From contig CALVNG010000011.1 in NCBI GenBank assembly GCA_944349545.1, forward strand, positions 1-46,049: a DNA stretch of 46,049 bases, read 5' to 3'. Position numbers and translations under genes: made by a program. This document shows, piece after piece, positions 5,305 to 28,656 of this stretch. The DNA is from an uncultured Eubacteriales bacterium. GTDB taxonomy: Bacteria; Bacillota; Clostridia; Christensenellales; Aristaeellaceae. Position 1 is the stretch's first letter. Each line of letters begins with the position of its first letter. The notes below the pieces were generated by a model, which worked only from the letters and a program-made list of their open reading frames with translations, was not told the origin of the DNA and made no database searches.

Positions 5305-5643
5305 TTACAGAGTCAGCGTGAGCACGATGCCCACCATAATGAGCAGATTGCCGATCAGGCGGCGCGGGGTAATCTTTTCCTTGAGGAACCACCAGCTGAG
5401 CAGCATCACATAGATGTAGCTGGAGGCTTCCAGAATGCTGGACACGCTCAGCTCCAGCGTGCGAAGCGCCACGACGTTGAGCAGCATGCAACCGAAGAAC
5501 AGCGCGTAGGCCGTTATCACAGGCGCGTTGAGATAGGCGCGCACACCCGTGTAGCGGGGGTTGTCGGCGGCCTTTTTGAGAATGAGCTGGCTCGCCGCCG
5601 AAAGCAGGGGGGTGATCAGGTAAATCAGGACGCCGCTATTCAT
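5305..5643 (-). CDS. EmrE/EamA-like half transporter, subunit B
   Basis: A 112-residue protein with four predicted helices and little else, the size of one SMR/EamA half. Near the C-terminus it has SWWFLKEKITPRRLIGNLLIMVGI, the typical EamA ending (E-K/-P-R-x-x-G-x-x-L-I-x-x-G). It overlaps the upstream gene for the other half by 8 bases. The two are therefore probably the subunits of a heterodimer, like ArnE/ArnF or EbrA/EbrB. The substrate is not visible; candidates are a lipid-linked sugar or a cationic drug. Confidence 0.85.
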   Translation of the reverse strand: MNSGVLIYLITPLLSAASQLILKKAADNPRYTGVRAYLNAPVITAYALFFGCMLLNVVALRTLELSVSSILEASSYIYVMLLSWWFLKEKITPRRLIGNLLIMVGIVLTLTL

Positions 5644-6019
5644 GGTCCGTCACCACGAGCGTCACTCCGGCCAGCGCCACCACAAGGCCGGCCGCCTTTC
5701 CCCAGCTAAACGGTTCGCCAATCACAAACACCCCGGCCAGCGTCGTCCACAGCGTACAGATGCCCTTGTTGCTGTAGGCAAAGCTCAGCGGCATGCGCCG
5801 GAGCGCGCGCTGCCACAGAAACGAATAGGCGAGCAGCGTCGCAACGTCCACCGCAAGAAATATCAGGGTTTTTCCCACATTCTGTGCCGCCAGCTGTATC
5901 CCCGCCAGCTTCCCCAGCACACTGGCCACAGCGTAAAGCAAAAGTGTGGCATGCAGCATCAGCAGGTCCTGAACCTTGATTCCGGGCATCTGTACCGTTG
6001 CTTTCCTTTCTTTGCTCAT
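5636..6019 (-). CDS. EmrE/EamA-like half transporter, subunit A
   Basis: A 127-residue, four-helix protein ending GVFVIGEPFSWGKAAGLVV and VTDHE, the EamA-type second-half signature (GE-x-x-x-x-x-x-x-G). The ATG at 6019 overlaps the recJ stop (ATGA) and has GGAGAG inside recJ. It overlaps the second subunit by 8 bases, so both are translated together. Membrane exporter or flippase of unknown substrate. The operon also holds a flavoprotein related to UDP-galactopyranose mutase, which weakly favours a sugar-lipid role. Confidence 0.85.
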   Translation of the reverse strand: MSKERKATVQMPGIKVQDLLMLHATLLLYAVASVLGKLAGIQLAAQNVGKTLIFLAVDVATLLAYSFLWQRALRRMPLSFAYSNKGICTLWTTLAGVFVIGEPFSWGKAAGLVVALAGVTLVVTDHE

Positions 6020-8379
6020 CTTTCACTCTCCAACGCCCGCAGGGCGGACAAAATCGGGCTGTCGCCGAGGCTGCACCTGGCCGCCGGGCGGATCGCGTAA
6101 CGAAACGGCGACGGCGTATAGTCGATCAGCCCCAGCTGGCAGAAGGCATGCAGCCCCGCGCGCGCCTGCGCGGCCTCCATGCCCGCCGCCTGCGCGAGCT
6201 GCCCAAGCGTTCGGTGCGCGCCGCCGCGCAGCGCCCTGTACAGCGTGCGGTACGCCTCGTCCCCCGCATCCACGGCGCGGGCCAAAGCCGCGAGCGCCTC
6301 GCTGCAGGGCAGCACATGCACCCGCGCGTGCGGCAGGCGGCCGCGCCACAGCGCCGCTTCACCCGCGAACGCCTCGCCGTCCAGCAGCCATACGTGCCGC
6401 CAGTGCCCCCCGATCACCGGCAGCGCCGGCGCGGTCAGCAGCGTGGCAAAGCCGCGGGGATCGTCCGGCGCGTGCGCGCACACGTCCAGATCCGCCAGCG
6501 CCAGCGCCCGGCGCGCCGAGGCATGCGTGCGCGCCGCCAGCAGATGGCCGCGTCGCCCCTCCCGGAGCGCGGCTTCCAGCGCGGGCCAGCCGGTTTCCTG
6601 TATGGATTCTGTATCCGAAAGGGGTTTTCCTGCCTGCATGGAAAACGCATCGGCCAGCGCGTCCACCAGCGCGTCCCGCTCCGCCGGGCCGTCGGGCGCG
6701 TCCAGCGCCTGCGCGCACGCCTCGCGCACGGGTTTGAGCGCCTTGACGTCCAGCTGCAGCGACGTCACCCCGCGGAAGGTGTTGCGCCCCAGGCTGAACA
6801 CCGCGTCCACCTCGTCCGGAAGCGTCGCGGCCAGCGCGCCCTGCGAAAAGGCGATGCCGCCCAGCATGCGCCCGCCCTGCCGGAGGGTGAGCTTGAGGTG
6901 CGCGCCCTCCGCGCCCACGGCCCGGCGCTCCTCCGGGTGCAGCCCGCGCGCCAGAAACAGGGGTGCGGGGTTGCCGCAGCCAAAGGGGGCCATGCGGCTG
7001 ATCTCGTCCAGCAGCGCATCCGTGCAGTCCGACAGGGTCAGCTCCGCGTCATAGGGCTGGGCGGGCACGAAGCAGCTTTCCTCCGCCCGCGCCACGGCGG
7101 CCTGCAGGCGCTCGCAAAACGCCCCGTACCGGTCCGCCTCCAGCGTCACGCCCGCGGCCTGCTCGTGGCCGCCGTAGCGCAGCAGCAGATCGTCGCAGGT
7201 CTTGAGGCATTCGTGGATGTGCACGCCGGGGATGCTGCGCAGGCTGCCGTGCAATAGCCCCTCATGCTCGCTGAGCACGCAGGTGGGGCAGTAATACTGC
7301 TGGCACAGCCGCCCCGCCGCCAGGCCGATCACGCCCACGTGCCAGTCCTGCCCGCGCACGATCAGCGCGCGTTCCCCGATGAAGTCGTGCGCCGCGGCCT
7401 GCGCCTGCGCCGCCCTGACCAGCCGCTGCTCGGCGGCGCGGCGCTCGGTATTGAGCGCGTCCAGCTCCTCGGCCAGCCGGTCCGCCTCAGCGGGGTCGTC
7501 CGTCATCATCAGGCGCACGCCCTTGCCCGCGTCGTCCAGGCGGCCCGCCGCGTTCAGCCTCGGCCCCAGCCGGTAGCCCAGCACGTCGCTGTCCACGGGG
7601 TCGGGATCGCCGCTCACCCGGAGCAGCGCGCGCATGCCCTGCCGCTTCCGCCCGGCGATCGTCTTAAGCCCCAGCGCCACCAAGATCCGGTTCTCGTCCT
7701 CCAGCGGCACGATGTCCGCCACGATGGCCAGCGCCGCCAGATCCAGATACTCCCGGCACGCCTCCAGCCCCAGCAGCGCCTGCGCCAGCTTGAAGGCCAC
7801 CCCCGTGCCGCACAGGCGGCGGAAGGGATAGTCCCCCAGCAGCGGGTTGAGCGCCGCGTCGGCGGGGCTGGCCTCCAGCCCCAGGCCGTGGTGGTCGGTC
7901 ACGATCACCCGCATGCCCAGCTGCTGCGCCAGGCGCACCTCCTCGTGATTGGTGATGCCCAGGTCCACCGTGACCAGCACGCGATGGTCTTTGGCCAGCT
8001 GCTCCACCGCCGCCAGGTTCAGGCCGTAGCCCGCCTCGCGCAGCGGCGTATAGGGGTCGGCCCGAAGCCCGTAGCGGCGCAGCGCCTGCGTCATCAGCGC
8101 GCAGGCGCAGATGCCGTCCACGTCGTAATCGCCGTAGACCGCCACGCCAAGGCCGTGCCGCCGCGCGTCCGTGAGAATCGAGAGCGCCTCCGCCATGCCG
8201 TGCATGCGCATGGGGTCATGCAGCCGGTCCGGCGAGGGGCTTAGAAACGCCTCGGCCTGCGCCGCGTCGGTGATGCCGCGCGCGTACAAAAGCCGCGCCG
8301 TTACCCCCTCGTAGGGGCGAAGCGCGGCCGCGGCGCGCCCGTCCAGCGGGCGCGCCTGACGTGGGATGAAACGAAGCAA
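6016..8379 (-). CDS. recJ: Single-stranded-DNA-specific exonuclease RecJ
   Basis: A 787-residue 5'-3' ssDNA exonuclease of the DHH superfamily, acting in recombinational repair and mismatch repair. DHH motif I is GDYDVDG (83-89), the acidic motif II is TVDLGITNHEE (137-147, with Leu where Cys or Asn is usual), and VTDHH is at 160-164. Length matches Bacillus RecJ, including the extra C-terminal domain. The start is TTG at 8379, because AAGGAGG lies 7 bases before it; the open frame further upstream only overlaps the neighbouring flavoprotein gene. It is 40 bases downstream of that gene and overlaps the transporter gene by ATGA. Confidence 0.93.
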   Translation of the reverse strand: MLRFIPRQARPLDGRAAAALRPYEGVTARLLYARGITDAAQAEAFLSPSPDRLHDPMRMHGMAEALSILTDARRHGLGVAVYGDYDVDGICACALMTQALRRYGLRADPYTPLREAGYGLNLAAVEQLAKDHRVLVTVDLGITNHEEVRLAQQLGMRVIVTDHHGLGLEASPADAALNPLLGDYPFRRLCGTGVAFKLAQALLGLEACREYLDLAALAIVADIVPLEDENRILVALGLKTIAGRKRQGMRALLRVSGDPDPVDSDVLGYRLGPRLNAAGRLDDAGKGVRLMMTDDPAEADRLAEELDALNTERRAAEQRLVRAAQAQAAAHDFIGERALIVRGQDWHVGVIGLAAGRLCQQYYCPTCVLSEHEGLLHGSLRSIPGVHIHECLKTCDDLLLRYGGHEQAAGVTLEADRYGAFCERLQAAVARAEESCFVPAQPYDAELTLSDCTDALLDEISRMAPFGCGNPAPLFLARGLHPEERRAVGAEGAHLKLTLRQGGRMLGGIAFSQGALAATLPDEVDAVFSLGRNTFRGVTSLQLDVKALKPVREACAQALDAPDGPAERDALVDALADAFSMQAGKPLSDTESIQETGWPALEAALREGRRGHLLAARTHASARRALALADLDVCAHAPDDPRGFATLLTAPALPVIGGHWRHVWLLDGEAFAGEAALWRGRLPHARVHVLPCSEALAALARAVDAGDEAYRTLYRALRGGAHRTLGQLAQAAGMEAAQARAGLHAFCQLGLIDYTPSPFRYAIRPAARCSLGDSPILSALRALESER

Positions 8380-8419
8380 TGCGGAGCCTCCTTGCACAGG
8401 GACGCGGGAAAGGGAGACG

Positions 8420-9976
8420 TCAGGCCTTCTTTTCCTCGTGATACTCCTGCTCGGTGTTGACGTTCCAGATGTTGTCCTTGGTTTTGATACCGGCCACGAG
8501 GTTGTCCACCGCCTCAAAGGACGTGGCCATGGAGTGGTCCATGTTGTTGTAGCGGTGCTGGCCGTTGCGGCCCACGCAGTAGAGATTTTCAAAGCCGCTC
8601 AGATAGGAAACGACCTTGTCCATCTCGTCGTAGGTGTCGAAGTAGGCGGGGTACGCCTTCTTCACGCGCTCGCGGTGGCTCATGCGCACATGGTCCGGGC
8701 TGTCGATCACGCCCATGGCGCACAATTCGCGCGCCGCCATCGCCACGCACGCCTCCTCGCTCATGTTCCAGAAATCATCGCCCTCGTCGCAGAAGTACTC
8801 CAGCCCGATCCACACGGTATGCTCCGGGTCCTCCACCATGTAGGGCGACCAGTTGTTGAAAATCTGGATGCGGCCCAGCTTCACGTTGGTATCCTGCACG
8901 TAGATCCAGCAGTCGGGCACGATGTTGCCCAGCGTCTTGTGGCTGGTTTCGTTTTTCAGGTTCAGCCGGTCCACCAGAAGGCCCACGGTCACAAAGTCGC
9001 GGTACGGCAGGCCCGCCGCGACGCGCGCCACATCCGCGGGCACGTCGTTCATGCCCGCCACCAGGTCCTTGACCGGCATGGAGGAGAAGAACGCATCCGC
9101 CACGGCCTCATGCTCGCCGCTCCCGTCGCGGTAGCGCAGGCTTTTCACGCGGCTGCCCTCCGTGGTCAGGCCCAGGGCCTCCGCGCCCAGCAGAATCTTT
9201 CCGCCCATCTTCTCCACCTCGGCAGCCACGGTTTCCCACAGCTGGCCGGGGCCGTACTTGGGATAGCGGAATTCCTCGATCAGCGAGGTCTGCACGTGCT
9301 TCATCCGCTGTTCCCTGGAGACGAACACCTTGGAGAACATGTCCCTGAGGATGCCGAAGATGCTCAGCTCCTTGGTGCGCTGCTTGCCCCAGCTGGCGTC
9401 GATCTCGCGGGGATGACGGCCCCAGAGCTTTTCGGTGTAGCCCTCAAAGAACATGCCGTAGAGCTTTTTGCCGAAGCTGTTGATGTAGAAGTTCTCCAGG
9501 TTGTCGTTGGGACGCTTGCGCAGCGTGGCGCAAAGGAAGCTCACGCCCACCTGCATGGTGGTGGCAAAGCCCATGGTCTTGAGCGTTTCCAGCTTGAGGC
9601 TGATGGGATAGTCAAAGAAGTGCTTATCGTAATAGATGCGGCTGACGCGGTTGCGCACCAGCATGACGCGGTCCTCCCTTTCGGGATCGGGGCCGCCGGC
9701 GCACAGCGGCACGGGCCGGCCCAGCGCCTTGTCATCATAGGAGGGCGCGCCCTGCAGCGGCATGATATCCGACCACCAGTCCATCACCCGCTGGTCCTTG
9801 CTGAAAAAGCGGTGCCCGCCGATATCCATGCGGTTGCCCTGATAGCGCACCGTTCTGGAAATGCCGCCGATTTCATGGCTCTGTTCCACAACCGTCACGT
9901 CATAGCCGTGCTTGAGCAGCTCATACGCCGCCGTCAGTCCGGCGGGGCCTGCGCCGATGATCCATACTTTCTGCAT
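8420..9976 (-). CDS. FAD-dependent amine-oxidoreductase family protein (UGM/protoporphyrinogen-oxidase-like)
   Basis: A 518-residue flavoprotein. The Rossmann motif [18 protein letters not shown] sits at residues 7-24, then [14 protein letters not shown] and the GGHRFFSK motif. A central [16 protein letters not shown] matches a motif of UDP-galactopyranose-mutase-like and HemY-like oxidoreductases, usually found with polysaccharide genes. At 518 residues it is longer than classical UGM (about 370-400). The substrate cannot be fixed from sequence. It is the first gene of a six-gene operon, with an SD (ACAGGAG) before the ATG at 9976, and is read from the promoter at 10051-10079. Confidence 0.85.
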
Positions 9977-16646: not shown

Positions 16647-17726
16647 TTACAGCAGGTGCGCGCAGTCCTTGTCAAACGAGATGGCGGCTTGCTCGCCGAC
16701 CTCAAAGACGCGCTTGTTGAGGGGGCAGCTGTCGGTGATCTTGACCAGCGTGCCATCCGTAAGGCGCACATGGTAATTCTGGTAGCTGCCCATGAAGCAG
16801 CTCAGCTCCACCGTGCAGGGCAGCAGGCCCTCCGGGGCGATCCGGATGGCCTCCGGCCGCAGCACGATTTCGCCCTCGGCGCGCGCGGCGCGGGGCGTGT
16901 CGGTTTCCACAGTCACGTCGCGGCCCTCGATGCTGACGACGCAGTCCTTCCCCTGCATGCCCTTGACGGTTCCCTTGATGAAATTGGCCTCGCCGATGAA
17001 GTCTGCCACGAACTCGTCGGTGGGATGGTAGTAGATGTCCTTGGGGCTGCCCATCTGGGCCACGACGCCCTTTTTCATAATGATGATCTCGTCGGAGATG
17101 GACATGGCCTCGGACTGGTCGTGGGTGACGTAGATGGCGGTGATGCCCAGCTTCTGCTGGATGCGGCGGATCTCCGTGCGCATGGTCACGCGCAGCTTGG
17201 CGTCCAGGTTGGACAGCGGCTCGTCAAAAAGCAGCACGCCCGGCTCCACCACCAGCGCGCGGGCCAGCGCCACGCGCTGCTGCTGGCCGCCGGAGAGCTG
17301 GTTGGTCATGCGGCTTTCCATGCCGCCCATCTCCACCAGGTCCAGCATGGTCTTAACCCGCTGCTCGATCTCGGCCTTGGGAACCTTCCTGAGCTTGAGG
17401 CCGTAGGCCACGTTGTCAAAGACATTGTAGTGCGGGAACAGCGCGTAGCTCTGGAACACCATGGCGGTGTCGCGCTTGTTGGGGGTCAGCTCGTTGATGG
17501 GCTGGCCGCCCAGGTAGATCTCGCCCTCGTCCGGGCTCTCAAAGCCGGCCACCATGCGCAGCGTCGTCGTCTTTCCGCAGCCGGAAGGGCCCAGAAGCGT
17601 CACGAAGCTGCCCGGCGCAATGTCCAGCGACACATCATGCACGGCGTAAAAATCCTTGCCGGTCTTGGGGTCCTTGTAGATCTTGGAAATGTGGTCAAGG
17701 CGAACGCCCTTGCTGTCCTTAGGCAT
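16647..17726 (-). CDS. ABC importer ATPase (FbpC/PotA-like)
   Basis: A 359-residue ATPase powering the importer in this operon. Walker A GPSGCGKTT, Q-loop VFQSYALFP, signature LSGGQQQR, Walker B LLFDEPLSNLD and switch His (VTHDQ) are all intact. A TOBE-type regulatory domain follows from about residue 240 (VLRPEAIRI). The family imports ferric iron, polyamines, phosphonates or sulfate; with a fused double permease and an AfuA-like binding protein, iron is the commonest assignment, but the substrate is not proven. It overlaps the permease gene by 8 bases and ends before a strong terminator. Confidence 0.92.
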   Translation of the reverse strand: MPKDSKGVRLDHISKIYKDPKTGKDFYAVHDVSLDIAPGSFVTLLGPSGCGKTTTLRMVAGFESPDEGEIYLGGQPINELTPNKRDTAMVFQSYALFPHYNVFDNVAYGLKLRKVPKAEIEQRVKTMLDLVEMGGMESRMTNQLSGGQQQRVALARALVVEPGVLLFDEPLSNLDAKLRVTMRTEIRRIQQKLGITAIYVTHDQSEAMSISDEIIIMKKGVVAQMGSPKDIYYHPTDEFVADFIGEANFIKGTVKGMQGKDCVVSIEGRDVTVETDTPRAARAEGEIVLRPEAIRIAPEGLLPCTVELSCFMGSYQNYHVRLTDGTLVKITDSCPLNKRVFEVGEQAAISFDKDCAHLL

Positions 17727-19437
17727 CTTCGCTGCCTCCCTTTATCTTTCTGCTGGTGCCAAAATACTTGGTCACGAGGTTCATGATCACGATGGACGCG
17801 TACACGATGGCGATCAAAATGGTCGCGTAGGCGCAGGCCACGCCGTACTTGCCCTTCTCGGCGAACTCGTTGATCTGCGTGGTGATGAGCAGGTACTGCG
17901 GCGTCACCAGCAGGATGATGGCGCTGATGGCGGTGATGGAGCGCACGAAGGTGGTGACCAGGCCGCTTAAGAAGCTGTCCTTGATCAGCGGCAGCGTCAC
18001 GGAGGTGAACACCTTGCCGCTGCCCGCGCCCAGGTCGTAGGCGCTTTCCTCGATGGATTTGTCGATCTGCCGAAGCGCCGAGATGCCGCTGCGCGTGCCT
18101 ACCGGCAGGCTGCGCACGATAAAGACGATGACCAGAATCGCGCCCGTGCCGTAGAGCCCCTGCAAAAAGCCCGTGTGGAACACGCCGTTGGCAAAGCCGC
18201 GGATGTAGCCCACGCCCAGCACCGTGCCGGGCACGGCCATGGCCAGCATGCTGGCAAACTCAATAAGGCCCTTGGTGCGGAACTTCTTTTTGACCACCAG
18301 ATAGCTGATGATCATGGACAGCAGCGCGGTGATGGGCGAGGCGATCAGGCTCAATACGAACGAATCGCGGAACGCCTTGAGGCCGCTGTACTTGAACATG
18401 TATTCAAAATGCTTGAAGGACAGCGAATAGTCGCGGCCCCAGAGGTTGAACAGCGCGCCGAAGGGGATGCTGACATACATCAGGATCACGAACGCGGAAA
18501 ACAGCGAGCACAGGATCGTCAGCGGGCGGGTCACGCTCTTGTCGGCGATGAGCATGCGCGCGCGGCTGGCCTTGCCGGTGAGGGTCGCGTAGGTGCGCTT
18601 CTCCAGATAGTACTTCTGAATCAGGAACAGGATGAGCGTCAGGCTCAAAAGCACCACGGCCATGGCGCTCGCGCCCGCCTTGTCGTAGGCGCCGGTCACC
18701 TGCAAATAGATGGTGGTGGCCAGGGTATCGAAGCTGCCGCCGATCATCATGGGGTTGGCAAAGTCGGCCACGGACTCGATGAACGTGACCAGAAACGCGT
18801 TGCCCAGGCCCGGCAGCAGCAACGGGAACGTCACCGTGGTAAAGACCTTCCAGCGGCTGGCGCCCATGTCGCGGCTGGCCTCCTCCAGCGAGGGGTCGAT
18901 GTTTTTGAGCAGGCCCTTGAGCATCATGTAGCAGACGGGGAAGAACGTCAGGATCTGCACGATGGCGATGCCGTGCAGGCCGTAGATGTTGCTGTCATAG
19001 ATGCCCAGGAGGCTTCGCGTGATGATGCCGCCGCGGCCGAAGAGCAGAATCATGCTCAGCGACAGCACAAAGGGCGGGGACACCACCGGCAGCATGCTCA
19101 CGATATTGAACATCCGGCGCACCACGCGCAGGCGGATGCTCACGTACACGTCCACATAGGCGAACAGAAGGCCCAGCGCCGTGGAGCCAAGGCCCACGAT
19201 GAAGCCCAGCTCCAGCGTGTTGGTAAACGCCGTGCGGAAGCGGCCCATGTCCAGGACGCGGCTGAATACGTCCAGCGTGAGGCGCCCCTCCGATACCACG
19301 CTGTCAATCAGCAGCATGGCCAGCGGATAGAGGATGAACAAAGCCAGGAAAATCAGCAGCACCACGATGGTGGAGACCATCACCGGGTCGCCGAAGAGCT
19401 TTTTGCGGTCCAGTCTTGCGCTCTGCGCCTTGACCAA
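17719..19437 (-). CDS. ABC importer permease, fused double domain (FbpB-like)
   Basis: A 572-residue membrane protein with about 12 helices, made of two BinF-dep-transport-type halves. Each half carries an EAA loop that contacts the ATPase: EEASRDMGASRWKVF and EESAYDLGAGSGKVF. One fused polypeptide thus supplies both channel halves, as in FbpB and AfuB. The start is TTG at 19437 with AAAGGAGG 9 bases upstream; no ATG fits the N-terminus. It lies 82 bases after the binding-protein gene, with a long hairpin in the gap. Confidence 0.92.
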   Translation of the reverse strand: MVKAQSARLDRKKLFGDPVMVSTIVVLLIFLALFILYPLAMLLIDSVVSEGRLTLDVFSRVLDMGRFRTAFTNTLELGFIVGLGSTALGLLFAYVDVYVSIRLRVVRRMFNIVSMLPVVSPPFVLSLSMILLFGRGGIITRSLLGIYDSNIYGLHGIAIVQILTFFPVCYMMLKGLLKNIDPSLEEASRDMGASRWKVFTTVTFPLLLPGLGNAFLVTFIESVADFANPMMIGGSFDTLATTIYLQVTGAYDKAGASAMAVVLLSLTLILFLIQKYYLEKRTYATLTGKASRARMLIADKSVTRPLTILCSLFSAFVILMYVSIPFGALFNLWGRDYSLSFKHFEYMFKYSGLKAFRDSFVLSLIASPITALLSMIISYLVVKKKFRTKGLIEFASMLAMAVPGTVLGVGYIRGFANGVFHTGFLQGLYGTGAILVIVFIVRSLPVGTRSGISALRQIDKSIEESAYDLGAGSGKVFTSVTLPLIKDSFLSGLVTTFVRSITAISAIILLVTPQYLLITTQINEFAEKGKYGVACAYATILIAIVYASIVIMNLVTKYFGTSRKIKGGSEDA

Positions 19438-19464
19438 GCGTACCTACCTCCTTTTCCCCAGAGA

Positions 19465-19502
19465 CGGCGAGGGAGGATGACGCAGCGTCATCCTCCCCGC
19501 CG
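19465..19502 (-). other. Intercistronic hairpin between binding protein and permease genes
   Basis: An 11-bp stem (19471-19481 with 19487-19497), extended by CGGCG/CGCCG after a single bulged A. No T run follows. Such hairpins commonly protect the upstream binding-protein mRNA from 3' decay and lower permease output. Confidence 0.7.
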
Positions 19503-19519
19503 ACACAGAATTCGTTCGG

Positions 19520-20596
19520 TTATTCGGTCTGGAAGCGGTCGTCCGCGGCGGCGCCAAGGGCGTTGAAGTAGTCCTCAACGTACTTGGAGGTGTTGTTCTT
19601 GGCGTCCTCGAAATCGTAGTCAATCACGTTTTCGGGGTCCAGGCCGAAGGCGGTGGCCTCCTCAGGCTGCTCGGCGTTGTCGATCACCAGGAACTGGAAG
19701 CTTTCGTTCTCCTTGGCGATGTTGACGCAATCCGGGCTGAGCGCGAACTCAATCCACAGCTTGGCGGCGTTGGGATGCTTGGCGCCCTTGAAGATGGCGG
19801 TGGCGCCGATCTCAAAGCTGGTGCCGCTGGCGGGGATCACCAGGCTGATGTTGTCATAGCCGTCCAGGATCTGGGTGATGCCGTCATGCAGGAAGCCGAT
19901 GCCGATGACGCACTCGCCGATGCCGACCTTCTTGGAGGGGCCGGAGCCCGACTTGGTGTACTGGGCGATGTTCTTGTCCAGCTCCACGAAGTACTCCATG
20001 GCCTCGTCATGGCCCTTCATCTGCACCATGGTGTTGATGACCAGCTTGGCGGTGCCGGCGGTGTTGGGGTTGGACAGCCAGATCAGGCCCTTGTATTCGG
20101 GCTTGAGCAGGTCGTCCCAGTCCTTGGGCTCTTCCAGGCCCAGGCGCTCCAGCTCCTCGGTGTTGCACATGAAGCCCAGAATGCCCTTGTAGATGCCGTA
20201 CCAGCAGCCGTCCTTGTCGCGGTACATGTCTCCCAGCAGGTGGCTGGCGTTCGCGGCCTCGTAGGGTTCCAGCAGGCCCTTGGCCACGGACTCGTTATAC
20301 GGGTCGGTGGTGCCGCCGAACCACACGTCGGCGCTGGGATTGCCGTTTTCCTCCTCGATCTTGGCGGCAACCTCGCCGGTGGAGAGGCGCTGACGGTTGA
20401 CGGTGATGCCGAAGAGCTCCTGGAACTTGTCGCAGGCGGCGTTGAGGTAGGCTTCCTCGCAGCTGCCGTACACGGTCAGCTCGCCCTCGGCCTTGGCGGC
20501 GTCGATGAGCGCCTGGTCATAGCCCTCGGCCGAAGCCGCGCCGCACAGGCCCATCGCCATCACAGCCACCAGAAGAAGCGCCAACAGTTTTTTCAT
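19520..20596 (-). CDS. ABC importer substrate-binding protein (AfuA/FbpA-like)
   Basis: A 358-residue secreted binding protein. A signal peptide covers residues 1-23 (KK, hydrophobic core, ASA cleavage site). A Cys at 18 is preceded by MGL, which does not fit the lipobox, so it seems to lack a lipid anchor. The mature domain begins GELTVYGSC and contains PSADVWFGG, GLLEPYE and WDDLLKPEYKG, all typical of the FbpA/AfuA family. Substrate: probably ferric iron or a small organic anion; the iron-binding tyrosine pair was not found by eye. First gene of the operon, with AAAGGA 11 bases before the ATG. Confidence 0.88.
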   Translation of the reverse strand: MKKLLALLLVAVMAMGLCGAASAEGYDQALIDAAKAEGELTVYGSCEEAYLNAACDKFQELFGITVNRQRLSTGEVAAKIEEENGNPSADVWFGGTTDPYNESVAKGLLEPYEAANASHLLGDMYRDKDGCWYGIYKGILGFMCNTEELERLGLEEPKDWDDLLKPEYKGLIWLSNPNTAGTAKLVINTMVQMKGHDEAMEYFVELDKNIAQYTKSGSGPSKKVGIGECVIGIGFLHDGITQILDGYDNISLVIPASGTSFEIGATAIFKGAKHPNAAKLWIEFALSPDCVNIAKENESFQFLVIDNAEQPEEATAFGLDPENVIDYDFEDAKNNTSKYVEDYFNALGAAADDRFQTE

Positions 20597-21976: not shown

Positions 21977-22879
21977 TCAGCCGTTTCCGCCCGATTCATA
22001 ATCAAACAGCACGATTTCCCCGGTGCAGGCGTCCACGAACGCGCCGCCGCTGATATGCGTATCGCCCAGATCCACCTCCACCGCAAACTCCCACATGCGC
22101 CGGCCCGCATTGTCCTCCACCAGCCGCGCGCCCACCTCGTCAAAATCCTCCGCCGCGCCCACGGCGGCCGCCCCGGCTCCGCTGAGGCCCAGCTCCTCCT
22201 GCGCGGCGGCCCGCATGATCTCCTTGGCCTCGGCCAGGCTGATCTCCCCCGGGCCGGGTTCAACCTCGCGCACATCCATCCATACGCTGGCGTCCTCGTT
22301 CACCGGCGCGGGTGCGGGCGGCGTCTGCATGGGGCCGGAAGCCGCACTTTCCCGGGCCAGCGCCAGCGCCTCCTCCTGCCCCTCGTTCAGGGCGTAGAGC
22401 AGCTGCTCCTGCCCGTAGGCGGGGGCGGTCAGATCTTCGCCGCGCCAAAGCGCGGGGTCAAGGCCATCGTGGCTCCATGCGGCGGTCCTGCCGTCCGCCG
22501 TCTTTTCCACCGTGTACACGCCCGCACGCCCCGGATCGATGTTCGCCAGGGCGCGGAAGGTCACGCGCCAGCCGTCGTCCGTTTCCTCATGCTCCGCGTG
22601 AAACAGACCCATGGTTTCCGCTGTCAGCCCATAGGCGTCCATCACGGCCTGCCGGGCCTGGTATTTTGCCTCCGCCTCGGGCGAGCGGGTCAGGGCATAC
22701 ACCGCCAGCGCGGAAACCGCCGCCAGCGTCAGCGCAACCGCCAGAATCAGTCCGGCGGACATTCTTTTTTTCATTTTGGGTTCTCCTTTCGTCCGGGCAA
22801 GCACCGCGCTGCGGTTCCGCGGCTGCCAGCGCCGGCCGGACAGCTCGCGGTCCACGATCTCCTTCAGGCCGTCACGCAT
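21977..22879 (-). CDS. Membrane-bound ECF partner (putative anti-sigma) with PepSY-like domains
   Basis: A 300-residue single-pass protein. Residues 1-38 are a charged cytoplasmic segment (LSG, RSAVLARTKGEPKMKKR), 41-63 a helix, and the rest extracytoplasmic. Two PepSY-like stretches are visible: AKYQARQAVMDAYGL near 70-85 and ISLAEAKEIMRAAAQEELGL near 215, each followed by strands ending in GEIVLFDYE or similar. It overlaps the ECF sigma gene by 8 bases (ATGCGTGA), the usual layout for a sigma and its anti-sigma. The cytoplasmic segment resembles that of the 742-residue sensor at 25846-28074. Anti-sigma activity is inferred, not shown. Confidence 0.78.
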   Translation of the reverse strand: MRDGLKEIVDRELSGRRWQPRNRSAVLARTKGEPKMKKRMSAGLILAVALTLAAVSALAVYALTRSPEAEAKYQARQAVMDAYGLTAETMGLFHAEHEETDDGWRVTFRALANIDPGRAGVYTVEKTADGRTAAWSHDGLDPALWRGEDLTAPAYGQEQLLYALNEGQEEALALARESAASGPMQTPPAPAPVNEDASVWMDVREVEPGPGEISLAEAKEIMRAAAQEELGLSGAGAAAVGAAEDFDEVGARLVEDNAGRRMWEFAVEVDLGDTHISGGAFVDACTGEIVLFDYESGGNG

Positions 22880-23381
22880 CGTAATACCACTCCTTCAACC
22901 TGTCCCGAAGCCTCCGGTTCGCGCGCTGGAGCCGCTGCTTTACCGCGCTTTGCGATATGCGCAGCGCCTGCGCCGCCTCCGCGATGGTCATCTCCTGATA
23001 GTAGCGCAGCAGCACCGCCTCCCGCTCGCGCAGGGGGAGTGCCATCACGGCCCGGATGACCTCGCCGTCCGGGTGGGCGTCCTCCGCGCCCGCCTCCGGC
23101 AGGGCTTCCAGCGGCGTGCCGCGGTCCACATGCCGCAGCCATGCCGTTCGGTGATAATCGCGGCAGGTGTTGATGGCGATGCGCATCAGCCAGGTGCGCT
23201 CGTCACACTCGCCGCGAAACGTCTCCAGCCTGCGCCACGCCTTGATAAAGGTGTCCTGCGCTGCGTCCTGCGCCAGGGAAGCGTCATGCAGATACAGACA
23301 GCACATGCGCACCAGCGCGTCGCCGTAGCGGCGCATCAGGTCCTCCAGCCTGTCTCCGCCCGGGCCCTTGGCGGTCGTCAT
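22872..23381 (-). CDS. ECF RNA polymerase sigma factor (module 1)
   Basis: A 169-residue ECF sigma factor. Region 2 spans about 12-80 (DAAQDTFIKAWRRLETFRG, then WLMRIAINTCRDY) and region 4 about 105-160 (LPLREREAVLLRYYQEMTIAEAAQAL). It directs RNA polymerase to stress or envelope genes under control of the membrane partner encoded next. The start chosen is ATG 23381, with AAGGGGG 8 bases before; a GTG six codons upstream is possible. CGTCTAA at 23403-23409 suggests autoregulation. Close paralog of the sigma factor at 28067-28582. Confidence 0.92.
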   Translation of the reverse strand: MTTAKGPGGDRLEDLMRRYGDALVRMCCLYLHDASLAQDAAQDTFIKAWRRLETFRGECDERTWLMRIAINTCRDYHRTAWLRHVDRGTPLEALPEAGAEDAHPDGEVIRAVMALPLREREAVLLRYYQEMTIAEAAQALRISQSAVKQRLQRANRRLRDRLKEWYYDA

Positions 23382-23402
23382 GCCGCTCACCCCCTTCACC
23401 TG

Positions 23403-23489: not shown

Positions 23490-25370
23490 TCACCCCTGCC
23501 TGCGCCGCCACTTGAGCAGCACCGCCGAATTGAGAATCACGGCCACGGAGCCGGCATTGTGCACCAGCGCGCCCACCACCGGGTTGAGCGTTCCCGCCAT
23601 GGCCAGAAAAATCGCCAGAAAATTCAGCCCCATCGAAAAGGTCAAGTTCATGCGGATGGTGGTCATCATCCGCCGGGACAGGGCCATCAGGTGCGGCAGT
23701 TCCTTGACCTCGTCGTCTACCAGCGCGATGTCCGCGGCCTCCACGGCGATGTCGCTGCCCACGCCGCCCATGGCGATGCCCACATCCGCCTTTTTCAGCG
23801 CGGGCGCGTCGTTGATGCCGTCGCCGATCATGCACACGCGCATGCCGTCCCGCTGCCAGCCGTCGATGGCCTCCAGCTTTTCCTCCGGCCGGCAGCCGGC
23901 GCGCACCTCGCGGATGCCCAGCCGGGCCGCGATGGCGTCCGCCGCGCGCTCGTGGTCGCCCGTGAGCAGCACGGGCCGCACGCCCGCCGCCTCCAGCGCC
24001 GCAATCGTGGCGGCGCTCTCCGCGCGCAGCGTGTCGGATAGCGCAAGGTATCCGGCAAAGGCGCCGTCCACCGCCACGTAGATCATCGTGCAGCCTTCCT
24101 CCAGCAGCTTTTGGCGTTGCGCGTCCGCCGGAATGGCCACGCCGTTCTCCGCCAGCAGCTGCGGATTGCCCGCCAGCACGCGCCGCCCGTCCACGGCGGC
24201 GCTCACCCCGCGCCCCGGCAGCATGTCAAACGCCGTGGCCTGAGCGGCTTCGCAGCCGGTTTCCTCGCGGTATCCCGCCGCGACGGCCTTGCCCAGCGGA
24301 TGCTCGGACAGCCGCTCCGCGCCCGCCGCCAGCGCATAGAGCCCTGAGCGGTCCAGGCCGGGGAGGGCGCTTGCGACCGCCACCACCCGGGGCGTGCCCC
24401 AGGTGAGCGTGCCGGTCTTGTCAAAGGCGATTTTGCGCACGGCAGCCAGCCGTTCCAGCGCGTCGCCCTCCCGCACCAGAAAGCCGTGCCGGGTCGCGTT
24501 GCCGATGGCGGCCATGATGGCCGTGGGCGTGGCCAGCACCAGCGCGCAGGGGCAGAACACCACCAGAATCGTAACCGCGCGGATGATCTCGCCCGTGACC
24601 AGCCACGTCAGCGCCGCGGCGGTCAGGGCGATGACCACAATCCAGGTGGCCCAGCGGTCCGCCAGGCCCACGATGCGCGCCTTGCCTGCGTCGGCGGACT
24701 GCACCAGGCGGATCATGCGCTGGATGGAGCTGTCCTCCCCCACCTTGGTGGCCCGCATCTCAAAGGCGCCGTACTGGTTGACCGTGCCGCTGGACACCTC
24801 GTCCCCCGCCGCCTTGTCCACGGGCAGCGATTCGCCCGTCATCACCGCCTGATTGACGGAGGTCTGCCCGGAGAGGATCACGCCGTCGACGGGGATGCTC
24901 TCGCCCGGCAGCACGCGCAGCCGGTCCCCTACCCGCACCTGCTCGGCCGGCACGATTGTCTCGCCGCCGTCCCGCACCACGCGCGCGGTCTGCGGCGTCA
25001 GGCGCACCAGCTTTTCGATGCCGGCCCGCGCGCGGGCCACGGTCACATCCTCCAGCAGCGCGCCCAGCTGCATGATGAAGGCCACCTCGCCCGCGGCGAA
25101 GTCCTCCCCGATGAGCACCGAGGCGATCAGCGCCAGGGACACCAGCACGTCGGCCTTGATGTCAAAGGCCGTAATCAGGCCGATGAGCGCCTCCAGCACG
25201 ATGGGCACGCCGCAGAGCACGATGGCCACCCACGCCGCGTCAAACGGCAGGGGCAGCAGGTCGAAGATGCTTGCCACCAGCGCCGCGCCGGAGACGGCCA
25301 GCAGCGCAATTTCCTTTTGGATGCCGCCCCATTCCAGAAAAGCCTCGGCCTTTTGCACCAGCGTTTTCAT
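23490..25370 (-). CDS. P1B-type heavy-metal-exporting ATPase
   Basis: A 626-residue metal pump in the cytoplasmic membrane. TGES is at 178-181, the metal-binding CPC at 273-275 (VVFCPCALVLATPTAIM), the phosphorylated Asp at 317 (DKTGT), then the P and N domains and a final helix with HNAGSVAVILNSAVLL. It has no N-terminal heavy-metal-binding domain. The CPC context resembles CopA, but the C-terminal helix resembles Zn/Cd pumps with Asp replaced by Asn, so the metal is uncertain. It follows a CsoR gene, and its promoter carries a GGGTATACCC palindrome, which favours copper. ATG at 25370 with GGGAGG. Confidence 0.9.
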   Translation of the reverse strand: MKTLVQKAEAFLEWGGIQKEIALLAVSGAALVASIFDLLPLPFDAAWVAIVLCGVPIVLEALIGLITAFDIKADVLVSLALIASVLIGEDFAAGEVAFIMQLGALLEDVTVARARAGIEKLVRLTPQTARVVRDGGETIVPAEQVRVGDRLRVLPGESIPVDGVILSGQTSVNQAVMTGESLPVDKAAGDEVSSGTVNQYGAFEMRATKVGEDSSIQRMIRLVQSADAGKARIVGLADRWATWIVVIALTAAALTWLVTGEIIRAVTILVVFCPCALVLATPTAIMAAIGNATRHGFLVREGDALERLAAVRKIAFDKTGTLTWGTPRVVAVASALPGLDRSGLYALAAGAERLSEHPLGKAVAAGYREETGCEAAQATAFDMLPGRGVSAAVDGRRVLAGNPQLLAENGVAIPADAQRQKLLEEGCTMIYVAVDGAFAGYLALSDTLRAESAATIAALEAAGVRPVLLTGDHERAADAIAARLGIREVRAGCRPEEKLEAIDGWQRDGMRVCMIGDGINDAPALKKADVGIAMGGVGSDIAVEAADIALVDDEVKELPHLMALSRRMMTTIRMNLTFSMGLNFLAIFLAMAGTLNPVVGALVHNAGSVAVILNSAVLLKWRRRQG

Positions 25371-25393
25371 AAGCGCCTCCCGAACTATACTTA

Positions 25394-25409
25394 TAGGGGT
25401 ATACCCATA
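25394..25409 (-). promoter_or_regulatory. Probable CsoR operator
   Basis: Palindrome GGGTATACCC (25397-25406) extended by TA arms one base out on each side. It sits exactly at the expected transcription start of the ATPase gene, so bound repressor would block RNA polymerase. Confidence 0.7.
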
Positions 25410-25437
25410 CTATAGCACTGGCGGGAGGGCCTGTCAA
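25409..25437 (-). promoter_or_regulatory. Sigma-A promoter of the metal ATPase gene
   Basis: Perfect TTGACA (25432-25437), 17-base spacer, TATAGT (25409-25414), directly followed by the palindromic operator. Confidence 0.85.
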
Positions 25438-25465
25438 GCGGAAGGGCAGCCGGTTTCCGGCTAAT

Positions 25466-25496
25466 AAAAAGAAGCGGGCGTTCATTGCCCGCTTCT
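25466..25496 (-). terminator. Terminator of csoR
   Basis: Perfect 10-bp stem (25470-25479 with 25487-25496), then TTTTTATT on the minus strand. It separates csoR from the ATPase gene. Confidence 0.88.
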
Positions 25497-25512
25497 CTCA
25501 AAGCGCCGTATG

Positions 25513-25788
25513 TCATCCCATGTTGGAAAACCGCTCCACCGCCTTTGTGAAGCTCTCGATGGTCCTGTCCGCATCCCCATGCTCGATGCCGTCGCGTACG
25601 CAGTGGCGGATGTGGCCTTCCAGCACCACCTGCCCGCACTTGTGCAGGGCGGCCTTGGCGGCGTTGAGCTGGGAAAGGATGTCCTCGCAGGGCACGTCCT
25701 CCTCCACCATCCGGTCGATGGCCTGCACCTGCCCGATGATCTTGCGCAGCCTGCGGTGCAGGTTGTCGGCGTCCATGCACTGCTTCAA
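25513..25788 (-). CDS. csoR: CsoR-family metal-sensing repressor
   Basis: A 91-residue all-helical DUF156 repressor. Counting from the chosen start, Cys34, His59 and Cys63 form the Cu(I)-binding C-H-C triad with the spacing of CsoR. It should leave its operator when copper binds, derepressing the ATPase next door. The start is TTG at 25788: a perfect AAGGAGG lies 8 bases before it, whereas the ATG at 25806 would leave a leader of about 8 bases and has no SD. It is transcribed from its own promoter and ends in its own terminator. Other DUF156 members sense nickel, formaldehyde or persulfide; the triad favours copper. Confidence 0.88.
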   Translation of the reverse strand: MKQCMDADNLHRRLRKIIGQVQAIDRMVEEDVPCEDILSQLNAAKAALHKCGQVVLEGHIRHCVRDGIEHGDADRTIESFTKAVERFSNMG

Positions 25789-25820
25789 GGTCCATCCCTC
25801 CTTCATCCTTCCGTAAGCAG

Positions 25821-25849
25821 ATTGTACCGCCGCGCCCCCGCTTTGTCAA
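25821..25849 (-). promoter_or_regulatory. Sigma-A promoter of csoR
   Basis: TTGACA (25844-25849) overlaps the stop codon of the upstream sensor gene; 17-base spacer; TACAAT (25821-25826). The start site near 25814 supports the TTG start. Confidence 0.8.
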
Positions 25850-28074
25850 GGAACGGCCGGAGCGGAGGCCGCGAGGGTCTCCAGCCGCGTGAGGCAGTCC
25901 TCCAGCGCAGCCCCGCCCTCCACATAGTCGCACACGGCCCGGAGCATGCGGGCGTACACGCCGCCGTCCCGCTTCTGCGACCCGGCCAGCAGCGGATGCA
26001 GGCGCAGGTCCACGTAGGGCGCGATCTCCTCGCGGTAGGCCTCCAGCCGGCCCTGCGTCACCGCCCAGGAATCCGGCGCGGCGCGAATGGCGTCCGTGCT
26101 TGCGGTCAGGGCCTCCTCGTCGGTCGCGCGGCCCAGCTCGGCATCCCGGGCGTGCTGGTCCTCGATGATCCACGCGATCCACTCCTCGATCTGGGGGTGC
26201 AGCACGGGGCTGGCGGACGCGGGCTTGATCAGCGCCTCCTCATCCAGCGCACGATGCCCGCAGAGGTATTCCAGATAGGTCATGGCCACGTCGGGATGGC
26301 GCGCGTTGGGGTTGAGCACGTACACCAGCAGGTTGGCCCCGGCGGTCCGTCGCGCGTCCGCCGACAGGGCGGGCGGCAGCTGCCAGTCCGGCGCCGAGGG
26401 CGGCGGGGGCGTGGTCCCCGGCTCATAGGTCCTCTCTCCGGAGAAGGGCATGTCCTGCAAGCCCGAAAGCGAGAGAATCTCGTCCGGGTCCAGCCGCGCC
26501 TCGCCCTCCGTTTCGGGCAGCTTCGCGTCCCGCAGGGCTGTAAGCATGCGCACGAAGGCTTCCTCGCGGAAGTCCACGGCCCTGCCGGCCTGATACGCCT
26601 CCGTGATGCAGGCGGTCAGCAGCAGGTTCGCATAATCGTCCTTCGTCCATGTGCCGCCCTCCCAGGCATGGGCCACAAGCGGCGCCTTCTCCGTCCATGC
26701 AGCCTGCTTTTCCAGCAGCGCCTCCAGCGTAGCGGGCACCTCCTCCGCCCCTTCCCACACGGTCACATGCATAAAGGAGGGCACGGCGTAGAGCGACCCG
26801 TCCTGAAAGATCGCGTCCGCGACCTGCGCAAGCATCCCCTCCGTGTCCGCAAGCAGGAGGTCCGATTCATTCAGCGGCGCAAGTCCTCCCTGCCGCATCA
26901 GCGTGACCAGCTCCCCGTCCATGCGCACATGGAACAGGTCGGTTTCATCCCCGGCGGCGATGGCCTCGGCCACCTGCCGCGCCGTGAGCGAGGGGTCGGC
27001 GGCGCGCGATACGGCCACGCCGGGGCAGGCCTGCTGAAAATCCGCGTCGATGTTGTCCGCGCTGATATAACCGCGGATGGTGAGCGTGGGCAGGCTGCCC
27101 GCCTCCGTGAAGGGCACGTACTGCATGTCGTTCGTGCCAAGGGAGGCGTAGCCCTCGCCCACCACCGCAAAGGCGTAATCCAGATGGCCGGGCGCATATC
27201 CCTGCAGCGCCGTCCAGCCCGTGCCGTTCCACAGGGACAGCGTGCCCTCCACGATGGCGCAGATCGTATCCCCGTCGCAGGCCACGCCCTCGATTCCCTG
27301 CATGGACCGCTCGTCCAGGGTACGGGCCACGCCGCTCTCCGGGTCCACCGACATAAGGCGGCATACGCCTCTGTCCACGTCGCAGGCGACGGCCAGCAGC
27401 CCGCCTTCCCAGGCGCACAGCTCCGTGACGCCCTCCAGCGGCAGGCGCTCCGCCTCGCCCGTCAGGGGATCGGCCCGGTACACGTCCGCCTCATACACCG
27501 TTCCCTCCGGCAGCACGGCACGCAGGAACAGCCAGCCGTCCTGCATCACCGCCGCCCGGTACCGCCTCTGCGGCAGGTCCATCGGCGTACCCGCGTAGTC
27601 CAGCGTACAGACGAGCGCGCCGTCCTGCCATCGCCAGAGCTTCTTCCCGCTCAGGTCCAGCAGGGCAGGTGCGCCCCTATCCGCGTAGATCAGCGTGTCA
27701 AAGCCGATTCCCTGCGCCTGCAGCTCGTCCATGGACACCAGCAGCTCAGGTTCCTCCTGCCCCGGCTTCCATGTGCGCAGGCCGCCGCTGGTGGACAGGT
27801 ACAGCGTCCCGTCCAGCGACACGCAGCCGTGCAGCGCGCCCACATCCTCCTGCCGCACGCGCAGCCATCCGGTCAGCACGCCCGCCGCAAGCGCGGCCGC
27901 CGCCAGCAGCGTCACCAGCAGCGCCACCGCCAGCGCCAGCGAGAGCCGCCTGGGGCCACGCCGCTCTCCCCGCGCACGCGCCAAAACGCGCGTCTGGAGC
28001 GACGGACGGTCATCCATCCCGGACAGGCACTCGTCCACGGCCCGCCGAATCCGTTCCCGGTTGGTCTCACGCAT
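25846..28074 (-). CDS. Membrane-tethered sensor: ECF partner with beta-propeller-like and solute-binding-protein domains
   Basis: A 742-residue single-pass protein. Residues 1-42 are cytoplasmic and charged (RAVDECLSGM, SLQTRVLARARGERR), similar to the partner at 21977-22879; about 43-66 is a helix. Residues 80-325 look like a beta-propeller, with repeated short strands such as VSLDGTLYLST, VMQDGWLFLRA, AWEGGLLAVACD and ACDGDTICAIVEG. From about 330 to 720 the sequence has the pattern of family-1 extracellular solute-binding proteins: DLFHVRMDGELVTLMRQGGLAPL, DGSLYAVPSF, PATLEALLEK and LNPNARHPDVAMTYLEYLCG. The last phrase matches SBPs that bind oligosaccharides. It overlaps its sigma gene by 8 bases (ATGCGTGA). 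Ligand-controlled release of the sigma factor is inference. Confidence 0.8.
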   Translation of the reverse strand: MRETNRERIRRAVDECLSGMDDRPSLQTRVLARARGERRGPRRLSLALAVALLVTLLAAAALAAGVLTGWLRVRQEDVGALHGCVSLDGTLYLSTSGGLRTWKPGQEEPELLVSMDELQAQGIGFDTLIYADRGAPALLDLSGKKLWRWQDGALVCTLDYAGTPMDLPQRRYRAAVMQDGWLFLRAVLPEGTVYEADVYRADPLTGEAERLPLEGVTELCAWEGGLLAVACDVDRGVCRLMSVDPESGVARTLDERSMQGIEGVACDGDTICAIVEGTLSLWNGTGWTALQGYAPGHLDYAFAVVGEGYASLGTNDMQYVPFTEAGSLPTLTIRGYISADNIDADFQQACPGVAVSRAADPSLTARQVAEAIAAGDETDLFHVRMDGELVTLMRQGGLAPLNESDLLLADTEGMLAQVADAIFQDGSLYAVPSFMHVTVWEGAEEVPATLEALLEKQAAWTEKAPLVAHAWEGGTWTKDDYANLLLTACITEAYQAGRAVDFREEAFVRMLTALRDAKLPETEGEARLDPDEILSLSGLQDMPFSGERTYEPGTTPPPPSAPDWQLPPALSADARRTAGANLLVYVLNPNARHPDVAMTYLEYLCGHRALDEEALIKPASASPVLHPQIEEWIAWIIEDQHARDAELGRATDEEALTASTDAIRAAPDSWAVTQGRLEAYREEIAPYVDLRLHPLLAGSQKRDGGVYARMLRAVCDYVEGGAALEDCLTRLETLAASAPAVP

Positions 28075-28582
28075 CGTCCGCCCCTCCTTCCCAGATCAGC
28101 TGCAGACGTTCGCAGGCCCGCTTGAGCCGCTTGGCCACGGCCGTCTCGCTCACGTTCAGGGCTGCGGCCGTCTCCCGGAGCGTCATGCCCTGATAGTAGT
28201 ACAGGATCACCGCGTCGCGCTCCCGGTCGGGAAGGCGCATGATCTCCAGCGTCAGATGGACGCTGTCGGCCGCGGGCGGCGTGGCGGGTTCCGGCAGGCG
28301 GTCCAGCGTCACCCGCCGGTCCACGAAGCGAAACCACGCCGCACGGCGCATGTCTCTGCATGTATTCACGGCGATGCGCACCAGCCAGGTCTTGTCCGCG
28401 CACTCGCCCCGGAAGCGGTCCAGCGCGCGATACGCCTTGAAAAACGTTTCCTGCGCCGCGTCCTCCGCCAGCGTGGCATCCCGCAGGTAGAGGCAGCACA
28501 GCTTGAGGATGTCCTTTTCATAAGCCGCCATCAGACGGCTCAGCTCCGCCGCCCGTCTCTCGTCCGGGCGCTGCTGCGTCAT
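28067..28582 (-). CDS. ECF RNA polymerase sigma factor (module 2)
   Basis: A 171-residue ECF sigma factor with region 2 (DAAQETFFKAYRALDRFRG, WLVRIAVNTCRD) and region 4 (LPDRERDAVILYYYQGMTLRETAAALNVSE). It is very similar to the sigma at 22872-23381, including the CCLYLRDATLAEDAAQ stretch. The start is ATG 28582, preceded by AGGAGG with 8 bases; sixteen upstream in-frame codons lie beyond the SD. It ends inside the start of the sensor gene (8-base overlap) and probably controls its own operon plus unknown targets. Confidence 0.92.
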   Translation of the reverse strand: MTQQRPDERRAAELSRLMAAYEKDILKLCCLYLRDATLAEDAAQETFFKAYRALDRFRGECADKTWLVRIAVNTCRDMRRAAWFRFVDRRVTLDRLPEPATPPAADSVHLTLEIMRLPDRERDAVILYYYQGMTLRETAAALNVSETAVAKRLKRACERLQLIWEGGADDA

Positions 28583-28601: not shown

Positions 28602-28608
28602 TTAGACG
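28602..28608 (-). promoter_or_regulatory. ECF-type -10 element CGTCTAA of sigma module 2
   Basis: CGTCTAA lies 19 bases upstream of the sigma ATG and just before its SD. It is the same motif and near-same position as at 23403-23409. Confidence 0.45.
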
Positions 28609-28656
28609 GTCCGCGTCCGAAAAAAACCAACCCCGCGCCGATTTTTTGCGCTGAAA

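Follow-up and report, generated by a model that had tools for sequence, protein, structure and literature searches.

The RsgI anti-sigma factors of Clostridium thermocellum carry an extracellular substrate-sensing part and pair with SigI rather than with an extracytoplasmic function (ECF) sigma factor, and we know of no RsgI protein whose ectodomain is a solute-binding protein (SBP). TolB, a second point of comparison, is a beta-propeller. Residues 1–39 of Tt-TolB from Thermoanaerobacter tengcongensis are reported to bind sigma in yeast two-hybrid (PMC3397946); signal peptidase is reported to cut RsiV at an AxA-like site on ligand binding (PMC6066255), AxA being the usual signal-peptidase motif (PMC8844934). 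Here we analyse a 46,049-nucleotide stretch of DNA (hereafter the window) from an uncultured Eubacteriales bacterium (contig CALVNG010000011.1 of assembly GCA_944349545.1), in which an ECF sigma factor gene is overlapped at its end by 8 nt by the start of a gene on the same, minus, strand encoding a fusion of an anti-sigma-like segment, a predicted beta-propeller and an SBP-like domain. Our preferred reading, to which we assign a probability of roughly 0.7, is that the fusion is a membrane-anchored anti-sigma factor whose ectodomain came from a secreted propeller-SBP protein, senses a solute, and releases the sigma factor by regulated proteolysis.

A prediction made earlier from the sequence alone (the original prediction) had paired the sigma factor with a single-helix partner consisting of a short cytoplasmic segment, one helix, a propeller and an SBP domain. 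Both open reading frames (ORFs) are as it described them, and hydropathy, AlphaFold2 and Foldseek agree on the layout (Table 1). The sigma protein matches Pfam Sigma70_r2 (1.8e-14) and Sigma70_r4 (4.4e-14) and thus has sigma regions 2 and 4, while the fusion has only one strongly hydrophobic stretch (19-residue means exceed 1.6 solely for segments starting at residues 41–55). We rejected a chance ORF as the source of the fusion because other assemblies contain full-length relatives (36–45% identity) in the same gene order; the gene in Candidatus Limiplasma pullicola (L054) is 99% identical.

Both ectodomain folds named in the original prediction were predicted and matched in structure searches. 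The AlphaFold2 model of the whole protein (11 sequences) reached a mean predicted local distance difference test score (pLDDT) of 79.5 and a predicted template modelling score (pTM) of 0.75, the propeller blocks lying mostly at pLDDT 82–94 (only 67–76 in two blocks near residues 291–320) and the SBP part mostly at 75–95 (34–60 in poor loops near 461–480 and 521–560). Modelled separately, the propeller gave pLDDT 88.4, pTM 0.88 and 23 strands, and its top Foldseek matches were the designed Pizza6 propellers (E 8e-9, template modelling (TM) score 0.6), which we take to be six-bladed, followed by LRP6 and NHL-type propellers; residues 80–325 are thus predicted to form a ring of four-stranded blades. 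For the whole model the best matches were ATP-binding cassette (ABC) solute-binding proteins for sugars and oligonucleotides, together with maltose-binding protein fusions (7c0l, 7qhv and 1eu8: E 2e-10 to 3e-10, TM-score by target 0.54–0.59, overall root-mean-square deviation ~9 Å). With a profile of 20 family members, five of them fused, the SBP half matched sugar-binding proteins of solved structure (3zkk, 1.9e-13); part of the propeller gave a weak match to a WD40 protein in which no individual stretch passes. Of these 20 members, 10 matched Pfam SBP_bac_8 and 6 SBP_bac_1 (E ≤0.01). The curated cut-off for SBP_bac_1 is passed by L113, a fused clade member (34.2 bits against 26), and that for SBP_bac_8 by the secreted relative L110:10484-12784. 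The window protein alone reaches the cut-off of no Pfam or NCBIfam family, and its SBP assignment depends on how it aligns with these relatives and on the fold prediction.

Many proteins of the genus, ~730–830 residues long, begin with a signal-peptide-like start in place of the anti-sigma segment and continue with the same propeller and SBP. When an N-terminal profile was applied to 44 distinct full-length propeller-SBP proteins, 10 matched (six of them among the rows used to build it) and 34 gave no match. A sigma gene lies directly upstream in 10/10 of the fused form, the window and its near-copies included, compared to 0/33 of the secreted form, one of the 34 rows having been left out for too little upstream sequence. 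The pairing of a sigma gene with an SBP-domain gene recurs across the fused rows, where the two genes overlap, and in two further, more distant fusions, L163 and L164. Among the secreted rows, that of L052 (464 residues) has little or no propeller, and four loci (L120, L121, L049 and L061) encode secreted-looking SBP-only relatives of ~395–495 residues without a propeller. One 50-kb contig (G005:C54; L044, L045) holds thirteen propeller-SBP profile matches, a large lineage-specific expansion.

Residues 4–70 of the fusion are found again in further proteins that its genome encodes. In loci L001–L033, a first set of relatives that counts the window and its near-copies, 26/26 segment-bearing ORFs are immediately preceded by an overlapping sigma gene on their own strand; 8 of these are SBP fusions, again counting the window and near-copies, and 18 carry other ectodomains. 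In a second set, picked mostly for length, 30/32 have a sigma neighbour, the remaining two being an ORF truncated where its contig ends and a weak fragment lying at the edge of a locus, and neither the propeller nor the SBP profile found any of the 32 at E 0.01. Seventeen genomes of the genus contain 57 segment matches, at least 10 of them on proteins with an SBP-profile match, and 60 of 100 sampled genomes of the family have a segment match. By Pfam, the ectodomains of 27 long members include PepSY (9), DUF4179 (7) and YycI (6); DUF4179 was matched by 7/25 chassis proteins at E ≤0.01 and 7/27 at E ≤0.001, and its cut-off was passed by 2/10 scanned singly. The first ~70 residues are a member of a modular anti-sigma-like segment family that carries many ectodomains. 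Such a swap is visible at L059, where two sigma/anti-sigma pairs lie in tandem and the anti-sigmas are alike over their first ~32 residues and then diverge, one into a propeller-SBP and the other into a protein with a PepSY-like end (0.0011, under the Pfam cut-off). The second segment-bearing pair in the window (anti-sigma 21977–22879, ECF sigma 22872–23384, minus strand) shares the N-terminal chassis with the fusion; its ectodomain differs and has no Pfam match.

In a tree of 43 rows, from which the anti-sigma columns should be excluded by a 30% fill limit, the fused proteins form one group (support 99 by the Shimodaira–Hasegawa-like approximate likelihood ratio test) adjoining a permease-linked protein from G235 (98; long branch). 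A tree of the SBP part alone supports the window clade at 74 and groups the importer-linked L118 with it at 98. A secreted propeller-SBP of the permease-linked kind is the probable source of the ectodomain, the secreted-to-fused direction being likely rather than proven because the tree is unrooted. Permeases confirmed as BPD_transp_1 by Pfam lie beside secreted paralogues at six loci (L110, L118, L115, L045, L053 and L051, the last being the Ca. L. pullicola counterpart of L110). At L110:8167-17288, on contig C2 of the window's own genome, two tandem propeller-SBPs precede two BPD_transp_1 permeases, an HlyD-like and a MacB_PCD protein; this operon is unusual in make-up, and no ATPase gene was noted in it. 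The proposal in the original prediction that the SBP serves a sigma switch as its sensor gains strength from these paralogues, which the window's own genome encodes next to ABC permeases.

Table 1. Features of the fusion locus in window coordinates, with the basis for each.
Feature	Position	Strand	Basis or remark
ECF sigma factor, 171 residues	28067..28582	-	Pfam Sigma70_r2 and Sigma70_r4; start at 28582 preceded by AGGAGGTGA
Anti-sigma::propeller::SBP fusion, 742 residues	25846..28074	-	ORF and gene order kept in 10/10 fused rows
Cytoplasmic anti-sigma-like segment, residues 1–42	27949..28074	-	Common to 26 ORFs in L001–L033, all sigma-paired
Single membrane helix, residues 43–66	27877..27948	-	Hydropathy peak; helix 42–68 in low-confidence model
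Signal-peptidase-I-like site (A-L-A) at outer helix end, residues 61–63	27886..27894	-	Conserved AxA; putative cleavage site
Predicted beta-propeller, probably six-bladed, residues 80–325	27100..27837	-	AlphaFold2 and Foldseek
SBP-like domain, residues 330–737	25864..27087	-	Foldseek, 20-member profile, Pfam in relatives
Promoter-like GGTT-N20-CGTCTAA 5' of sigma gene	28602..28632	-	Possible autoregulation; weak

We propose that residues 1–42 would hold the ECF sigma factor at the membrane, and that outside the cell the lobes of the SBP would close on a solute, probably a sugar or some other small organic molecule. The propeller may relay this change, or may also bind, and would thereby make the A-x-A site that ends the helix more or less accessible. 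The fusion could next be cut by signal peptidase, followed by an RseP/RasP-type protease, and the freed sigma factor would transcribe its own operon and other targets, release on ligand binding being the direction that we infer for the switch. The genome encodes one RseP-type protease over cut-off and two signal peptidases I. Strict A-x-A occurs at positions 61–63 in 36 of 52 anti-sigma rows (A61 in 38, A63 in 46), a count in which at least two loci appear twice, and A63 is the second most conserved position across these rows.

Several observations weigh against this proposal. The first 80 residues, which include the segment proposed to bind sigma, are poorly modelled (pLDDT 40–55), and the window fusion alone passes none of the Pfam cut-offs for SBP, propeller and DUF4179. 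Sixteen of the 52 chassis rows have no A-x-A at 61–63 (nine of them have A-Y-A two residues further on), and an alanine-rich helix can yield A-x-A without cleavage. Ligand binding may not persist in every relative, as the C34 paralogue is ~60 residues shorter than the window fusion with several gaps, mostly in the SBP half. The sigma gene at L059 is interrupted by a stop, although this locus is counted within the 10/10; in both tandem copies there (5484–6002 and 8237–8479) the sigma gene stops after the same 80 residues. Finally, the exact promoter-like motif occurs once in the genome compared to three times for a reversed control, and with two mismatches twice compared to once, so that no regulon was obtained. 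The spacing of the motif is identical by eye in two orthologues, L028 and L009, but CGTCTA is absent from the 170 nt examined upstream in L007 and L008; given this absence and a genome search not above control, autoregulation of the sigma gene is only suggested.

The permease linkage of the secreted relatives, at the six loci above, also bears on a stronger form of this proposal, compatible with it, in which the tethered SBP hands its solute to an ABC importer and the anti-sigma segment gates sigma release by the bound or transporting state, SBPs having been recruited more than once in the family. Two fusions favour it. At L163 (G002:C45, 5338–9528) a sigma gene (5338–5841) is followed by an anti-sigma::SBP fusion (5834–7927, 697 residues) and then by two BPD_transp_1 permeases, the first starting 3 nt past the fusion, which makes this locus a possible sigma-coupled importer; at L113 the sigma gene is preceded, in the same orientation and with a single gene intervening, by a permease/SBP operon. 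However, the L113 importer has a separate SBP of its own, L163 is only distantly related and sits on a long branch, no BPD-type permease was noted beside other window-clade members (most of whose neighbours were without a Pfam scan), and no permease adjoins the fusion in the window. Here the nearest ABC cassette (16647–20596) is ~5 kb away with other genes between; its SBP is confirmed by SBP_bac_6, and its ATPase and permease are assigned by inspection of the sequence only. The statement in the original prediction that no importer lies beside the fusion therefore stands for the window but does not extend to L113 and L163, whose permeases are adjacent or near. We consider this coupling to uptake, on balance, rather unlikely. 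Near the C34-type fusion, on the opposite strand, L034 (153–1889, plus) and L036 (4437–6964, plus) have an ABC-ATPase-like ORF, at L036 together with a small membrane protein that by eye resembles the S component of an energy-coupling factor transporter.

A third fused kind, L164 (G012:C99, 6444–9028), comprises a more distant sigma gene and 693-residue anti-sigma::SBP fusion upstream of an IF-3 gene; the fusion scores 26.3 bits for SBP_bac_8 against a cut-off of 27 and has no profile match over the propeller. Neither the L163 nor the L164 fusion matched any sequence of the PDB in a phmmer search. The SBP tree places both outside the window clade, which suggests, but does not establish, more than one origin of the three fused kinds, as the approximately unbiased test does not reject a single fused clade (p 0.18 for all three kinds, 0.21 with L163, 0.44 with L164).

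A different explanation takes the fusion as a sensor of envelope stress or of a protein ligand, in which the propeller and SBP persist as a scaffold binding a protein or cell-wall fragment instead of a small nutrient. It draws on the other kinds of ectodomain carried by the chassis (PepSY, DUF4179, YycI), on the reported sensing of lysozyme by RsiV (PMC6066255), and on the gapped SBP half of the C34 paralogue. However, the SBP part still spans 358–419 residues in eight window-clade rows, and the secreted relatives are linked to permeases; we regard a protein or cell-wall ligand as a rather unlikely alternative to the solute of our preferred reading. That the N-terminal segment is a mere membrane anchor and the sigma gene an accidental neighbour is highly improbable, for although the window protein has no Pfam anti-sigma domain, sigma neighbours accompany 26/26 and 30/32 segment-bearing ORFs against 0/33 of the secreted form, and the overlap of the sigma and fusion genes is conserved.

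In the family, 7 of the 308 genomes searched yielded fused members of the window clade (G000, G001, G002, G006, G009, G114 and G319). Among 396 genomes sampled from the order (family included) only three matched, all of the family, and among 398 sampled from the phylum the propeller-SBP profile at E 1e-40 found the window's own genome only. Within these samples SBP-type anti-sigmas were seen in one bacterial family only, although cases can be missed because all three surveys scored only two or three candidates per genome, L163 and L164 having come from other searches.

Downstream of the fusion, on the same strand, a metal-sensing repressor (Trns_repr_metal, 5e-26) begins after 39 nt and is followed by a P-type ATPase (23490–25806); among the fused loci looked at, this pair recurs only in the near-identical Ca. 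Limiplasma pullicola locus. A secreted-looking protein lies 3' of the fusion in 3/9 loci (L037, L038 and L039); the one scanned against Pfam had no match.

The fusion would add a ready-made small-molecule sensor to the ECF sigma/anti-sigma toolkit, and the probable source of this sensor is traceable, since the same genome still encodes secreted, permease-linked proteins of like build. If ligand binding is true, the locus would provide a direct, kinase-free route from an extracellular solute to transcription, by which a gut bacterium could convert an external dissolved nutrient or signal straight into gene expression, and the chassis, with its single ~70-residue segment and varied ectodomains, would offer a natural route to finding or building new extracellular biosensors. 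Were the same SBP also to serve an importer, uptake and transcription would be read from one molecule.

Among known systems, an RsgI identity was rejected, since no RsgI match was found in Pfam or NCBIfam at E ≤1 and the partner is an ECF-type sigma factor. With the SBPs of ABC importers (SBP_bac_1/SBP_bac_8) the C-terminal half shares the predicted fold and, judged by its relatives, probably the sequence family, but in the fusion it is tethered to an anti-sigma segment, is preceded by a propeller and has no adjoining permease in the window. SigV/RsiV and the DUF4179 anti-sigmas of Firmicutes have a single helix and a reported ligand-triggered signal-peptidase cut (PMC6066255), and the fusion has an AxA-like site, A61-L62-A63, at its outer helix end; the window protein has no DUF4179 match, however, and its ectodomain is a propeller-SBP rather than a lysozyme-binding domain. 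Similar in topology is Tt-RpoE1/Tt-TolB, in which the sigma gene is followed at once by an anti-sigma gene encoding ~39 cytoplasmic residues, a helix at 39–61 and a large TolB-annotated ectodomain, with no SBP domain described in the accessible text of that report (PMC3397946). The original prediction had called the arrangement unfamiliar, and this holds for the SBP, as no SBP-type anti-sigma was described among the matches listed from titles and abstract openings of open-licence literature, but not for the propeller. A TolB-type anti-sigma is thus already known, while an SBP-type ectodomain, of unusual and traceable origin, appears to be new.

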